A stretch of 64,000 nucleotides of DNA from a bacterium 1xD42-67 (GTDB lineage Bacteria > Bacillota > Clostridia > Oscillospirales > Oscillospiraceae): contig RAYO01000010.1 of NCBI GenBank assembly GCA_003612335.1, positions 1-64,000 of the forward strand, read 5' to 3'. Positions 33,024 to 62,669 of the stretch are shown piece after piece. Both the position numbers and the translations under genes were made by a program. The notes under the pieces were generated by a model. It had not been told where the DNA came from and did not search any database. It was given only the letters and a program-made list of their open reading frames with translations. Each line of letters opens with the position of its first letter. Positions within the stretch are counted from its first letter, which is position 1.

Positions 33024-35663
33024 CTAGCCCAAAACCGAGGCCCAGGGGGTCTTGGCGGCATCGAAAGCGGCATAGTTCTTGTCCAGGATCTGACTGAGGA
33101 ACTGCACCTTAGCCTTGAGGCCGGCGTCGGAGCAGCCGGCGGCCACCTGATCGGTGCGGTGCCACAGGTACGCCCAGGTCTCGGCCCAGTCCTCGGGCCG
33201 GCTGGTCATGGCGTAGGCGGAGACATAGCTGCCATAGCCGGTGCTCAGCTCCTCCCAGGTGGAACAGGTGGCGTTCCAGCCGTTCAGGACGGCGGCACAG
33301 CTCATCACCATATGGCCCATCTCATGGCTGTAGTACTGGCTGTCTCCGCTGCCCGTGTAATAGATCTGGTCCACCTTCTGGGCGTCGTCGGAGTAGTCGT
33401 AGACGTGGAGGCCGAAGCTCTGTATCCCCTGATAGGTATAGGGGCACAGGACGATCTCCGCCTTCCGGGCCCCCTTCTTCTGGGCCATCTCCTTCAAGAA
33501 GCCCTGGGGATAGAGGTCGTAGGCCGTCTTCATGGTGCGCAGCTCGGCCAGCACGTCCTCGAAATATCCCCGGTCCATCTCGAACTGCTGGATATCACTG
33601 TGCTGGATCGGGCCGGCCTCCTTGGGGGTCCACTCGGGCAGATAGAAGATCTGGATCCCGATCTGCTCCTCCAGGGCCCGGCAGAACTCATAGGCCACGT
33701 CCACATCATAGCGGATCCGGGCCTGGCCAGTGAAGTCGGCGCCGTCGGCCAGACGAGTGCCCTTCTGCTCCATGCCCGCCGACACCGCCTCCCAGTCGAT
33801 CTGCTTCCACCGTTCGGGGTGGAGGAGGGTGACCACCATGGTGCAGCACTCGGCCCGGGTAGCGTTGGCCTTGGGCATGAAGCTGCCCTCCGCGTCCACC
33901 CCGCTGACGATCCCGTTGGAGTACAGCCAGAGGATATCGTTCTCATACCGGCTCCCCGCCACGGCAGAGGCATAGTCGCCGATGAGGGCATAGGCCATAC
34001 TATAGATCCCCAGCGGTTCGCTGGACCCTTCTGCCACCTGAGCATAGGCATAGATCCAGCTGAGCATGTAGGCGATCTCCTCGCGGGCGGCGGGCTTGCC
34101 CCATTCGGCCTTGCTGTAGCCAAAATCTGTGATCTCACACAGGTTGGCCAGGGCGATGAAGCGGTTGGCCCAGTGCTCTCCATTGGTCTGCCGGGCATGA
34201 GCCACTGCCCGATCGATGTCAGCAGGATCCAACGCCTTCTCCGCCGGGAAGGAGCCCAGCAGGATCGTGCAGACCGCCTCCCGCGTGATACTGTCGTTGG
34301 GGTGGAAGGTCCCGTCCTGATAGCCGCTGACCCCTCCCAGCTGGGCCAGCTCGGTCACATAGGGATAGAACCAGTCGCCGGAGCTCACATCGCTGAAGGA
34401 TGGAGGCCCGGAGGGCTTGGAGGGCTGTTCCGGGATCTCAGGCTGGGCGCCGGATCCAGACTGACCGGAGCTCAGGGGAGATGTGGCCGCGCCGTCCATC
34501 ATCTTGGAATAGCTCTTGCTGGTATAGCTGTAGGCCCAGACAGAGCCGTCCGTCTTCACATAGAGATATTCGCCGTCTGTCACCGCGACCTGGTCCGCCA
34601 TCCTGGTCAGGCTGCTGCCGATCTTCCACAGGGAACCGTCCGTCTTCAGAGCCGCCCCATCGGCAACTGCACAGACCCCGTCAGCCACCTTCCTGGGTAC
34701 GGTCTGCACCTTGGTGTTCCAGCTCTTTCCACTGTATATAGTGCGCTCTACGATGGTCTGGTCGCCGCCCTCAAAGCCCAGATAGCTCTTGGTATCCAGA
34801 CTGTCGTTGCCGTTATAGCCAAAGCTCCAAAGAGAACCATCCGTCTTGATGCAAAAGGTACACACCGGGTCGCAGTAGACAGCCGCCGCACCGTCCATGA
34901 CCTTGATGAAACTGCTGGAGGAGATGCCCTCACCGCACCGGCCGTCCCCCAGCTGGCCATGCAGATCCTTGCCGCAGGTCCGCAGGGAGCCGTCCGTCTT
35001 GATGATGGCGGTGTGCTCGCTGCCGCAGCTGACCTGGGCCACATCGCCCATGACGCGGACCGGGATGGTCTGGCAGGCGTCCTCTTTTCCAGTCAGAGAG
35101 ACCGACTTGATGTAGTCTCCGCCCGTCCGGCCCAGCTGTCCATAGCTGTTTTTGCCCCACATCCACAAGGTGCCGTCCTTCTTCACCGCGCCCACATGGG
35201 TGGCGCCTATGCTGAAGGAGACCACATCGTCCAGCACCTTGTTCGGTGTCCACTGGATGTGCAAATCGCCGTTGCCGTCGCCCAGCTCGCCGTACAGGCT
35301 GCCGCCCCACATCCACAGGGTGCCGTCCGCCTTCAGCGCGCCGGCGCAGTTATCGCCTACGTCCACAGCGACGACGTCATCCATGATCTTCACCGGCGTG
35401 GTCTGGGTGATCTTTGGCAGGCCGGAGCCCATATCTATGTCGTGGAGATCCCCCTTGCCGTCATTACCCACCTGGCCCCGGCTGTTATCGCCCCACATCC
35501 ACAGGGTACCGTCCGCCTTGACCACACCGTTGGCACTGCCGTGGGCCGCTGTGGAGGCCCCGCCGGGCCGGATGTCTGCATTTGCCGCCAGGCTCGTCAC
35601 CGGCAGCAGGGCCAGCACAAGAGCCAGGGCGCAGATCAGCGAGAACGATCTTCTCCTTCTCAT
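33024..35663 (-). CDS. Secreted RCC1-repeat, S-layer-homology and zinc-metallopeptidase-like protein
   Basis: 879 residues. Signal peptide 1-27 with an Ala-rich cleavage site. About 40-430 hold five or more RCC1/BNR-type repeats (KADGTLWMWG and KKDGTLWMWG recur), which would fold as a beta propeller. A Ser/Pro-rich linker leads to S-layer homology repeats at about 440-640 (FSDVSSGDWFYPYV, GYQDGTFHPNDSITR). The C-terminal domain carries HEMGH (His 780-His 784) with a third-ligand candidate in PEDWAETW (Glu 828), the arrangement of gluzincin-like peptidases. SLH repeats normally bind secondary cell-wall polymer, so the protein should sit on the cell surface. ATG at 35663 is preferred to 35672 because AAGGAG is then 10 nt away. 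Confidence 0.85.
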   Translation of the reverse strand: MRRRRSFSLICALALVLALLPVTSLAANADIRPGGASTAAHGSANGVVKADGTLWMWGDNSRGQVGNDGKGDLHDIDMGSGLPKITQTTPVKIMDDVVAVDVGDNCAGALKADGTLWMWGGSLYGELGDGNGDLHIQWTPNKVLDDVVSFSIGATHVGAVKKDGTLWMWGKNSYGQLGRTGGDYIKSVSLTGKEDACQTIPVRVMGDVAQVSCGSEHTAIIKTDGSLRTCGKDLHGQLGDGRCGEGISSSSFIKVMDGAAAVYCDPVCTFCIKTDGSLWSFGYNGNDSLDTKSYLGFEGGDQTIVERTIYSGKSWNTKVQTVPRKVADGVCAVADGAALKTDGSLWKIGSSLTRMADQVAVTDGEYLYVKTDGSVWAYSYTSKSYSKMMDGAATSPLSSGQSGSGAQPEIPEQPSKPSGPPSFSDVSSGDWFYPYVTELAQLGGVSGYQDGTFHPNDSITREAVCTILLGSFPAEKALDPADIDRAVAHARQTNGEHWANRFIALANLCEITDFGYSKAEWGKPAAREEIAYMLSWIYAYAQVAEGSSEPLGIYSMAYALIGDYASAVAGSRYENDILWLYSNGIVSGVDAEGSFMPKANATRAECCTMVVTLLHPERWKQIDWEAVSAGMEQKGTRLADGADFTGQARIRYDVDVAYEFCRALEEQIGIQIFYLPEWTPKEAGPIQHSDIQQFEMDRGYFEDVLAELRTMKTAYDLYPQGFLKEMAQKKGARKAEIVLCPYTYQGIQSFGLHVYDYSDDAQKVDQIYYTGSGDSQYYSHEMGHMVMSCAAVLNGWNATCSTWEELSTGYGSYVSAYAMTSRPEDWAETWAYLWHRTDQVAAGCSDAGLKAKVQFLSQILDKNYAAFDAAKTPWASVLG

Positions 35664-54094: not shown

Positions 54095-54493
54095 TTACCA
54101 GACGAATGCCAGGACTTCACCGCCGACATGGGCCTGACGGGCCTTCTTGTCGGTCATGACGCCCTTGGACGTGGAAACGATGGCGATGCCCAGGCCGCGC
54201 AGGACCTTGGGCAGCTCGTCGGCGCCGGCATAGACCCGCAGGCCGGGCTTGGATACCCGCTTCAGGCCGGAGATGACCTTCTCCTTGCCGGCGTTGTACT
54301 TCAGGGCGATGCGGATGACGCCCTGGGTGCCGTCGTCGATCAGCTGGAAGTTCTTGATATAGCCCTCCTCCAGCAGGATCTGCGCGATGGACTTCTTCAT
54401 GTTGGACGCAGGCACGTCCACGGTGTCATGCTTGGCATTGTTCGCGTTGCGGATACGGGTGAGCATATCCGCGATAGGATCGGTGATCTGCAT
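54095..54493 (-). CDS. rpsH: 30S ribosomal protein S8
   Basis: 132 residues. [19 protein letters not shown] and the C-terminal [20 protein letters not shown] identify it. It binds the central domain of 16S rRNA and in E. coli represses the spc operon. The ATG at 54493 follows AGGAGG. The frame stays open upstream through the structured repeat, but that part is not S8. An unusual 680-bp gap separates it from rpsN. Confidence 0.97.
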
Positions 54494-54526
54494 TGCGTGT
54501 TTACCTCCTATAAAGATTACCGGAAT

Positions 54527-54661
54527 TGTCACGCCTCGCCTGTTCGCGACGCGCGGCTTCCCTCCGACTCGGGACACAAACATCCGGACCTGCGGCCCTT
54601 CTTGGTTTGTATCCCTCGCTTCGGTCCATCCGCGCTGCTCACAACGGCTCAGCGCTTCTCG
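54527..54661 (-). repeat. Structured repeat element, copy A (upstream of rpsH)
   Basis: About 91% identical to copy B at 61716-61851 and in the same orientation. Minus-strand RNA folds as three stacked stems: outer 54630-54635 with 54551-54556, middle 54605-54615 with 54571-54581 (11 bp), and apical GGGCC-GCA-GGUCC (54598-54586). It ends with the conserved GAGGCGTGACA, 33 bp before the rpsH start. Confidence 0.85.
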
Positions 54662-55058
54662 GTACAAGCGGCAAGGTATCGCAGGTCAGGTCCTTCCTGC
54701 GACCTGTTGACCGCCCCGCGCCTGGTTGGGGCAGGCGCATTTTATATGGGAACGTCCCGGCCTGTACACGTAGGGCCAGGGCCTTCCGTCAAGACCGCAT
54801 ACGCGGGTTTGACCAAATAGAGCTCCCCTTGGAGCCGGACTGCTAGGGGCCGACGACCTCGGCGGCCCGCTCCTCGCAGTGCCCGCAACGCCAGACAAAC
54901 GGCGCGCCGGGTCGTCGCGCCCTACACGCGTTCTCTCCCAGGCGCCTCCCACGGCCATACCACTTTCCAGAGGCACCTGGAGTTCATACGGTACGCAGGT
55001 GTGAACGCACGGCTGCGTGTGGAACGATTTGTCTTGTCCCGCAGGGACACAACTATCG

Positions 55059-60930: not shown

Positions 60931-61659
60931 TTACTTGTTCCGGGCGGAAGCCTTCTGCGGGTTCACGCGGGCAGAAGCCTTCTGCGGGTTCACGCGGCCG
61001 GCCTCGGCGGCATGCTTCTCGATGATGGTCTTCACGGTGTTCTTCACATAGACCACGCCGCCCTTGGGGCCGGGGATGGCCCCCCGCACGGCGATCAGGC
61101 CCAGCTCCTCGTCCACCTGGACCACGTCCAGGTTGAGGACGGTGACCTGCACATTGCCCATCTGGCCCGCGCCGTCGCGGCCCTTGGCGATGTGGCCGGG
61201 GGTGGTGCCGGCGCCCAGAGAGCCCTGGTGCCGGTGGACAGGACCGCCGCCGTGGGTGTTGCGCTTGACGGCCGCGCCGTGGCGCTTGACCACGCCCTGG
61301 AAGCCGTGGCCCTTGCTGGTGCCGGTGATGTCCACGAAGTCGCCGGCGGCGAAGACGTTGGCGGTGAGCACGTCGCCCACCTCATACTTGGAGCAGTCCT
61401 CCAGGGGGAACTCCTTGAGGACCTTCTTGAACTCGCTCATGCCGGCCTTCTTCTGGTGGCCCAGCTCAGGCTTGGTGAGCTTGCGCTCGGGGACGTCCTG
61501 GTAGCCCAGCTGGATGGCCTCGTAGCCATCCTTCTCGGCGGTCTTCTTCTGCACCACAGTGCAGGGGCCGGCCTGGATCAGGGTGACGGGCACCACCCGG
61601 CCGGCTTCGTCGAAGATCTGGGTCATGCCGATCTTCTTGCCGATGATCGCTTTCTCCAT
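60931..61659 (-). CDS. rplC: 50S ribosomal protein L3 with duplicated C-terminal tail
   Basis: 242 residues, about 30 more than usual. Normal L3 blocks are GKKIGMTQIFDEAGRVVPVT, VDITGTSKGHGFQGVVKRH and HRHQGSLGAGTTPGHIAKG. The tail is two copies of VNPQKASAR, encoded by a 27-bp tandem repeat. ATG at 61659 follows AGGAGGAA. The 394-bp gap before it holds two structured repeat copies. Confidence 0.97.
   Translation of the reverse strand: MEKAIIGKKIGMTQIFDEAGRVVPVTLIQAGPCTVVQKKTAEKDGYEAIQLGYQDVPERKLTKPELGHQKKAGMSEFKKVLKEFPLEDCSKYEVGDVLTANVFAAGDFVDITGTSKGHGFQGVVKRHGAAVKRNTHGGGPVHRHQGSLGAGTTPGHIAKGRDGAGQMGNVQVTVLNLDVVQVDEELGLIAVRGAIPGPKGGVVYVKNTVKTIIEKHAAEAGRVNPQKASARVNPQKASARNK
60944..60997 (-). 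repeat. rplC: 27-bp tandem duplication inside the 3' end of rplC
   Basis: Units 60944-60970 and 60971-60997 differ at one base and keep the reading frame. The second unit begins with the near-perfect palindrome GCAGAAGCCTTCTGC, so each unit can form a hairpin. Confidence 0.85.
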
Positions 61660-61715
61660 TTGGGATCTTCCTCCTAAAAAAGGTTATTGGTTGACGCGGC
61701 CCATTGGGCTGGCCT

Positions 61716-61851
61716 TGTCACGCCTCGCCTGTTCGCAACGCGCGGCTCCCCTCCGATTCGGGACACAAATACCCGGGCCTGCGGCCCTCCTTGGTTCGTA
61801 TCCCTCGCTCAGGTCCATCCGCGCTGCTCACGACGGCTCAGACGCTTCTCG
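61716..61851 (-). repeat. Structured repeat element, copy B (upstream of rplC)
   Basis: Aligns with copy A with 11 substitutions and one gap. Outer stem 61819-61824 with 61740-61745, middle stem 61795-61804 with 61760-61769, apical GGGCC-GCA-GGCCC (61787-61775). Changes relative to copy A keep pairing by G-U or by restoring G-C. It ends about 57 bp before the rplC start. Confidence 0.85.
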
Positions 61852-61913
61852 TCAACTTGACCCGTCCGCCTCAAAATGCGGCAGACAGTGGGTACAACGG
61901 GGTCGGGCGCTGT

Positions 61914-62053
61914 TGTCACGCCTCGGTCCCCTCGCGGCCGGGTCGATAGCTTCTCCGGCTCCGGGCAGACCCATCCGGGGCCTGCGGCCCCTCCTCGGGC
62001 TTTGCCCTGCGCTCCGGCGCTATCTCCCCTGCTCGGGGATTCGGCGCTTCTGC
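61914..62053 (-). repeat. Structured repeat element, copy C (directly after rpsJ)
   Basis: Diverged third copy with the same architecture but different stem sequences: outer GATAGC/GCTATC (62024-62019 with 61950-61945), middle GGGCA/TGCCC (62007-62003 with 61967-61963), apical GGGGCC-GCA-GGCCCC (61991-61977). Apical loop, a GGAG-containing linker and the terminal GAGGCGTGACA are conserved. It begins at the rpsJ stop. Confidence 0.75.
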
Positions 62054-62365
62054 TTACAGCTTGATCTCGATCTCCACGCCGGCGGGGAGTTCGAGAGACA
62101 TCAGAGCCTCCACGGTCTTGGGGGAGGGCTTGATCACGTCGATCAGGCGCTTGTGGATCCGGCGCTCGAACTGCTCCCGGCTGTCCTTATACTTGTGGAC
62201 GGCCCGCAGGATGGTCACGACCTCCTTCTTGGTGGGCAGGGGGATGGGGCCGGAGACATTGGAGCCAGTGCGCTTGGCGGTCTCCACGATCTTCTCAGCG
62301 CTCTGGTCGATGAGCTGATGGTCATAGGCCTTCAGCCGGATGCGGATCATTTCTTTCTGAGCCAT
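62054..62365 (-). CDS. rpsJ: 30S ribosomal protein S10
   Basis: 103 residues, the typical size. [20 protein letters not shown] and [19 protein letters not shown] identify it; in the cell it also binds NusB for antitermination. First gene of the operon, behind a long leader. ATG at 62365 follows AAGGAGG. Confidence 0.98.
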
Positions 62366-62669
62366 GTGGGTGTTTCCTCCTTAGATACGAAGTTGAAGTT
62401 TTGGGGCTTGCTCCTCCTCCGTAACGGGTGAGCGGGCTTTCATACACGCTTTCGTGCGTATCACTCCAGGCCACGAAAAAACCGGCGCATAGACAGGCCG
62501 GTCCTCCCCGTACCAGGCGATATACGCCGTGTACGGACTCGCTCAGCCGCCCGATAGTCGGACATACTCCGCGGAAGTTACCTCATCTCTGAGCAATCTC
62601 CCGCATCATCGCAGGCGCGCCCTTTTTCAGACGCCCCGTTATCATACAACACCCGCCCGTGTGTGTCAA
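62366..62669 (-). promoter_or_regulatory. S10 operon promoter and untranslated leader
   Basis: Minus strand TTGACA (62669-62664), 17 bp, TATGAT (62646-62641), a near-perfect sigma-A promoter. The leader of about 270 nt holds CCGTAC/GTACGG with an inner GGCG/CGCC hairpin near 62505-62535. An intrinsic terminator follows at 62502-62475, then a hairpin around ATACGC/GTGTAT before the ribosome binding site. I found no gene in it. The layout suggests transcriptional attenuation of the operon. Confidence 0.75.
62475..62502 (-). terminator. Leader terminator (candidate attenuator) of the S10 operon
   Basis: ACCGGC pairs with GCCGGT (62502-62497 with 62486-62481), directly followed by TTTTTT (62480-62475), lying 110 nt before the rpsJ start. 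Confidence 0.7.

Follow-up and report, generated by a model that had tools for sequence, protein, structure and literature searches.

Copies A, B, and C of a structured intergenic element in the S10-spc operon studied here are probably members of a dispersed repeat of ∼130 nt that is mobile, non-coding, and non-autonomous, REP/BOX-like in character. The mobility of the element is well supported by its distribution over sites and genomes, and we infer below how it may be moved. It represents a family of short mobile repeats in gut Oscillospiraceae that has apparently not been described previously: we found no description of the repeat in the literature, and it may be among the 3161 structured-RNA candidates of the human microbiome whose list is held in the supplements of PMC8040213. 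Such a family would pass for an operon-specific regulator if judged from one genome alone.

Three copies in the S10-spc operon

The window, i.e. the whole 64 000-nt stretch of DNA that was analyzed, carries its S10-spc operon on the minus strand, and all three copies are on the operon's coding strand, at 54527..54661 (copy A; model core 54529-54657), 61716..61851 (copy B; core 61718-61847), and 61914..62053 (copy C; core 61916-62049), in agreement with the positions and transcribed strand given by the first-pass annotation. We searched with R2, a covariance model made from 90 copies with A, B, and C not among them; its only matches in the window at E ≤ 1 are A (139.8 bits, E 4.6e-31), B (122.2 bits, E 7.2e-27), and C (43.7 bits, E 3.3e-8). 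Identity between A and B is 91%, as had been estimated. Copy C, of a divergent subfamily, had been recognized as the same element despite its other stem sequences, and this was confirmed both by R2 and by model R1 (26.6 bits, E 0.0013). Dinucleotide shuffles fold worse than A, B, and C, with z scores of -4.41, -2.47, and -3.28, respectively.

The copies had also been placed before rpsH or rplC. This stands for copy A, before rpsH (54095..54493, minus strand; an ORF whose start we set by eye at MQITDP), and for copy B, before rplC (60931..61659, minus strand; an ORF with tblastn relatives); copy C is better placed after rpsJ (an ORF at 62054..62365, minus strand), beginning 4 nt past the stop codon that precedes it. 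The count of three holds for the operon but is incomplete for the genome, where there are about ten copies, some partial. Rfam (release 15) gave no match overlapping a copy, either in the window at gathering thresholds or in eight loci at E ≤ 5. The operon's known leader, S10-Clostridia (RF03136), was found at 62547..62617 (minus strand; 36.2 bits, gathering 35.1).

Fold and covariation

One strand of the element forms a long, imperfect hairpin in which short helices make up a rod and are separated by purine-rich GA/GA internal loops that we read by eye as tandem GA pairs. The outer stem is 5 bp (GCGYC/GGCGU), the tip helix changes freely between copies, and the model is 130 positions long. 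RNAalifold applied to an unfitted MAFFT alignment of 31 copies yields 37 pairs, 18 of which have changes on both sides; an alignment of 90 copies that is fitted to R1 has 92.9% of its cells paired and both-side changes in 32 of the 37 pairs. When partners are slid in the 90-copy alignment, 31.7-50.2% of cells pair. The first-pass annotation had pointed to pairing-preserving changes between copies, and these are borne out by 468 double-change cells in the 90 copies, compared to a mean of 129 in shuffles; its suggestion of a selected RNA structure holds insofar as covariation keeps the sense-strand fold. Standard pairs drift to G-U far more than to A-C, by 46 to 9 where the alignment is unfitted and by 208 to 50 where it is fitted. 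Of the 133 copies, 131 fold better in the sense strand than in the complement under RNA parameters, and 132 do so under DNA parameters; since both sets favor the sense strand, the data fit either RNA or single-stranded DNA as the folded form.

The set of 133 distinct copies was obtained from 137 rows by removing duplicates; duplicate loci of one copy and some truncated or very short matches, namely L187 (41 nt), the partial L033, L045, L006, L007, and L042, and L008, had been left out beforehand. At their termini, G, T, or A stands ahead of AAGCG, and CA, TA, or AT behind GTGA. The border positions covary as a pair: in a tally that took in 125 of the 133 copies, G before AAGCG occurs with C after GTGA in 70, T with TA in 27, and A with AT in 5.

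Distribution among genomes

A BLAST search with copy B finds more copies on other contigs of the same genome, and R2 at E ≤ 0.1 retrieves ten copies there, two of them partial. Several of these are at contig ends, indicating assembly breaks in the repeat. The G000 contigs C108 (at its start) and C32 (at its end) both stop inside copies between tpiA and a phosphoglycerate mutase gene, where the assembly probably breaks at the repeat.

Within the genus, R1 matches at E ≤ 0.01 occur in 41 of 64 genomes, with 1 to 14 per genome, and in 20 of the 31 genomes of good quality. Across the family, 41 of 300 genomes, in 18 of 106 sampled genera, have R1 matches at E ≤ 0.001. At the order level, R2 at E ≤ 1e-4 matches 14 of 394 genomes, family members being counted among the 394; outside the family, the order-wide sample has a single genome with matches, three weak ones, the best at 2.6e-5. 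The single-contig genomes G007 and G029 have no R1 match, and R2 gives one short form of 42 nt in G029. The covariance-model search of Oscillospiraceae genomes that had been proposed for the element has thus found covarying copies in other genomes, with no Rfam family matched.

Insertion sites: stop codons and neighboring genes

We named sites by hand, partly with Pfam. Neighbors backed by Pfam are LexA, EF-P, NusG, PGK, PNPase, a MurE-like ligase, a transpeptidase, MurA-like and MurG-like proteins, PTA, RF1, TIM, QueT, a SpoU methylase, DUF1385, a V-type ATPase subunit, phosphoglycerate mutase, and S15; DnaK, RpsJ, RplA, and GroES were named by eye. Automatic gene calls were often on the wrong strand (e.g. 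for pnp and rpsH), so that the orientation totals are not evidence and were left unused (longest-ORF calls: ++57, +-25, -+17, --12, and others; codon-score calls: ++54, +-43, --12, -+12, and others). At most of the sites that could be named the element is in sense orientation, mostly in transcribed spacers. Besides those in the S10-spc operon, copies stand behind dnaK, efp, nusG, lexA, pgk, tpiA, and pta; further sites are inside a T-box leader and before a phage terminase gene, and a few copies are antisense (at murE, murA, and T-box sites).

Many copies touch a stop codon. Because more than one frame meets a stop codon at the 5' end of the element (TAAGCG, AAGCGCTGA, AAGCGTCTGA), ORF-based counts of such contacts are inflated by chance frames, and it is with this in mind that we report a sense frame ending from 10 nt inside to 7 nt before the copy for 65 of the 133 copies, and stop contact for 30 of 44 copies in co-directional spacers, compared to 5.6 expected under even placement. 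The C-termini at the 65 stop-touching copies fall into 32 clusters, two genes being merged in one of them, and the co-directional test took 44 of the 54 ++ rows. The same stop codons mean that insertion at this end costs little. Contact is seen at the housekeeping genes dnaK, rpsJ, rpsO, nusG, groES, efp, pgk, and tpiA. In L056, prfA ends on a TGA inside the element. For efp, relatives without the element have the same C-terminus and stop, so that the stop is native; those of rpsJ and dnaK are also native by comparison with relatives without the element.

Leader RNAs interrupted by the element

Two conserved leader RNAs, of rpsH and rplC, were brought to light alongside the repeat. The rpsH leader (54499..54816, minus strand) runs from GGTCAA.. 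to CCGGTAATC..AGGAGG and is interrupted by copy A; alignment of 17 uninterrupted relatives, which have the site of A empty, supports a fold of 34 pairs, 7 of them with both-side changes. Copy A is within the apical loop of this leader's last hairpin (TACCG..CGGTAA). The rplC leader (61682..61899, minus strand; GTACCC..GGGTCAAGT..ACCAATAACC) is interrupted by copy B; its motif is present in 41 of 41 loci of the genus, without the insert in relatives, and its fold has 22 pairs, 15 with both-side changes, from 34 uninterrupted sequences. Copy B is set into the last hairpin of this leader, where the basal stem GTTGACG/CGTCAAC closes around it and the remains of the inner hairpin adjoin it. Neither leader matched Rfam in four relatives at E ≤ 1. 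We regard the rplC leader-like RNA as a candidate L3 or L4 leader. For the rpsH leader, inspection by eye shows a sigma-70-like promoter and a terminator-like hairpin ahead of it in several relatives.

By R2, the rplC leader is occupied in 3 of 41 loci (the window, G050, and G023), the other 38 being without a match, and the rpsH leader in 2 of 24 (the window and G008). A third rpsH-leader copy is in G062, on another stretch (L238), and remnants in this leader were seen by eye in G009, G018, and G050 (composite).

The element also enters other structured RNAs. Infernal aligns L198 to a T-box leader, leaving 121 nt in the loop of one helix where the copy stands; the copy runs antisense to the T-box, and the score, 61.7 bits, is below the family's gathering threshold of 93. 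The T-box case of L058 is similar (41 bits). In rpsO-pnp spacers, the copy is inside a TTTAGCA..TGCTAAA hairpin.

Occupied and empty sites, dispersal, and tandem copies

The rpsJ 3' site has full R2 copies in 6 of 41 loci (the window, G048, G063, G046, G036, and G043) and the 42-nt short form in G029, with 34 of 41 loci having no R2 match; remnants were seen by eye in G010 and G024. Occupancy by R2 is 6 of 30 at dnaK and 12 of 30 loci at efp, where empty relatives have the same EF-P C-terminus. Most orthologous sites that we examined are empty or have unrelated palindromic repeats.

Those other repeats are of several kinds. Spacers of rpsJ, dnaK, and efp in relatives (L268, L269, L302, L305, L309, L317, and others) have palindromic repeats of the form GTAGGGGCG..CGCCCCTAC, REP-like by eye; the rpsJ 3' spacer has, in the same place, a palindromic repeat of the TAATTGA..TCAATTA type (L284, L292-L297); and a structured repeat, GGAGAGGAGGAGCAAGGAAGCG..GGACTTTGCGACGA, occurs in an rplC leader (L275), an rpsH leader (L267), and behind dnaK (L304). 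Elsewhere in the window, 34527-35528 has direct repeats of ∼62 nt with CCGTCC cores (families D1 and D2) that look coding and may belong to a repeat protein.

In G055, two copies are identical at 127 of 129 positions, while their flanks are alike at only 18/60 and 20/60, i.e. the loci are unrelated. With site labels taken from our own patterns and tandem neighbors counted as the same genome, 22 of 133 copies have their closest relative within their own genome, compared to a mean of 5.2 and a maximum of 13 in shuffles, and 20 of 58 have it at the same labeled site (mean 1.3 and maximum 8 in shuffles). These two excesses together indicate both descent in place and dispersal. That identical sites are occupied across many species could also reflect vertical descent with fast change.

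Eleven tandem pairs were found, eight with a spacing of 7 nt and three with 5 or 8 nt, and the linkers flanking an inner tandem copy are often alike. There are also a few short forms, 38-49 nt long, in which both ends are preserved. One IMG/VR contig (IMGVR_UViG_3300010262_000168, L422) has a copy (R2, 68.8 bits) just before terL, the following gene being a terminase large subunit by Pfam and PHROGs; such a phage is a possible vehicle for the element. This copy is apparently the second in a tandem. The contig came from the first of two IMG/VR pattern scans, the second of which found none, and copy B had no match among phage and plasmid records.

Search for a moving enzyme and marks of insertion

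Y1 transposases are present in 30 of the 64 genus genomes, and 30 fetched Y1_Tnp loci have no copy at E ≤ 0.1 (best 0.15). RAYT-like genes, by our own labeling, are weakly associated with copies (Fisher p 0.043 over 64 genomes, 0.066 over the 31 good ones), and some copy-rich genomes have no RAYT-like gene, among them the complete G005 with 9 copies and the 98% complete G008 with 13. Solitary element ends, fetched in search of a longer version, proved to be remnants or short forms, with no transposase-bearing version among them. By eye, no target-site duplication was seen in the flanks of single copies, and no classical terminal inverted repeat beyond the 5-bp outer stem with the covarying last pair. 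Neither a GTAG nor a CGTC tag stands at the hairpin foot in the termini of the 133 copies. Integron attC sites are likewise hairpins behind ORFs; the termini of the element look unlike the attC end motifs.

Alternative explanations

The location of A and B inside the rpsH and rplC leaders would suit a role in the S10-spc operon as its leader or as a sensor of ribosomal proteins, the latter being one of three options offered by the first-pass annotation. This we consider very improbable: most copies are at other, unrelated genes, most genus genomes lack the element in the rpsJ-rplC spacer, the leaders exist without it in 38 of 41 rplC loci and most rpsH loci, and the constant presence before a regulated ribosomal-protein gene that a sensor would show is not seen. 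A broader functional role is less easily dismissed, though still improbable, namely that the element is a cis-acting RNA (an mRNA stabilizer, or a processing or coupling element) used by the host behind highly expressed genes and spread by recombination. Sense orientation at most nameable sites, contact with the stop codons of housekeeping genes, strong covariation with a G-U bias, and the filling of the same sites in many species all speak for it. Against these stand the patchy occurrence, with most orthologous sites examined empty or given over to unrelated palindromes, the antisense copies at murE, murA, and T-box sites, and the single-contig genomes G007 and G029, where R1 finds nothing and R2 only the short form in G029.

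The evidence favors the REP-like parasite among the three earlier options, which also included an RNase processing site, yet the defining marks of REP were not found. That the element is a true REP and owes its movement to a RAYT (Y1) transposase is improbable, somewhat more so than a host-used RNA. REP termini are reported to give stop codons to flanking ORFs (PMC3733652), much as here, and the weak association of RAYT-like genes with copies points the same way; the length of ∼130 nt rather than 20-40, the untagged hairpin foot, the 30 Y1_Tnp loci with no copy nearby, and the several copy-rich genomes with no RAYT-like gene point away from it. More speculative, and in our judgment a long shot, is that the element reads RNA-level landmarks, inserting via folded RNA or coupling to transcription at stop codons and leader loops, with the target set by mRNA structure and termination rather than by DNA sequence.

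Proposed mode of spread and implications

For the dispersed, non-autonomous repeat that we favor, an enzyme supplied in trans would recognize the strand by its fold, whether in RNA or in single-stranded DNA, and insert that strand. Selection would then keep those insertions that the host RNA tolerates. New copies may be added beside an old one, ∼7 nt off, and old copies may decay to short forms with both ends. On the host RNA, the element would be a passenger hairpin that may or may not change stability or coupling locally. What emerges is a structured mobile repeat of common gut bacteria, living in their most conserved operons and settling where it is least harmful; its copies provide dozens of natural experiments on the effect of a stable hairpin at a stop codon or within a leader that resembles a riboswitch.

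Comparison with known systems

The S10-Clostridia leader RF03136 belongs to the same operon but has a separate place and fold, with no overlap with A-C. Of the marks of MITEs, target-site duplication was not seen by eye in the flanks of single copies; terminal inverted repeats are another (PMC3049150), and their nearest counterpart here is the 5-bp outer stem with its covarying last pair. REP sequences are reported to be 20-40 bp, with ends that may supply a neighbor's stop codon (PMC3733652). Both REP and our element are dispersed palindromic non-coding repeats with stop codons at their ends, whereas the REP moved by RAYT is tagged with GTAG/CGTC and ours is ∼130 nt with no such tag seen; we do not file it as REP because the REP marks of length and end tag fail. 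The pneumococcal BOX repeat, reported in a composite RNA with two T-box riboswitches (PMC3049150), is, comparing descriptions rather than sequences, a structured transcribed repeat of similar size; BOX is however modular (boxA/B/C) and streptococcal, while our element is a single rod with a changing tip that is found in hairpins and at stop codons. The repeats bcr1-bcr18 of the Bacillus cereus group are reported to be intergenic, some MITE-like and some with conserved RNA structure, with about half transcribed (PMC3446304); by description, again not by sequence, they resemble ours as intergenic repeats and differ in host group. The element, filed under none of these groups, is akin in kind to the REP, BOX, and bcr repeats.
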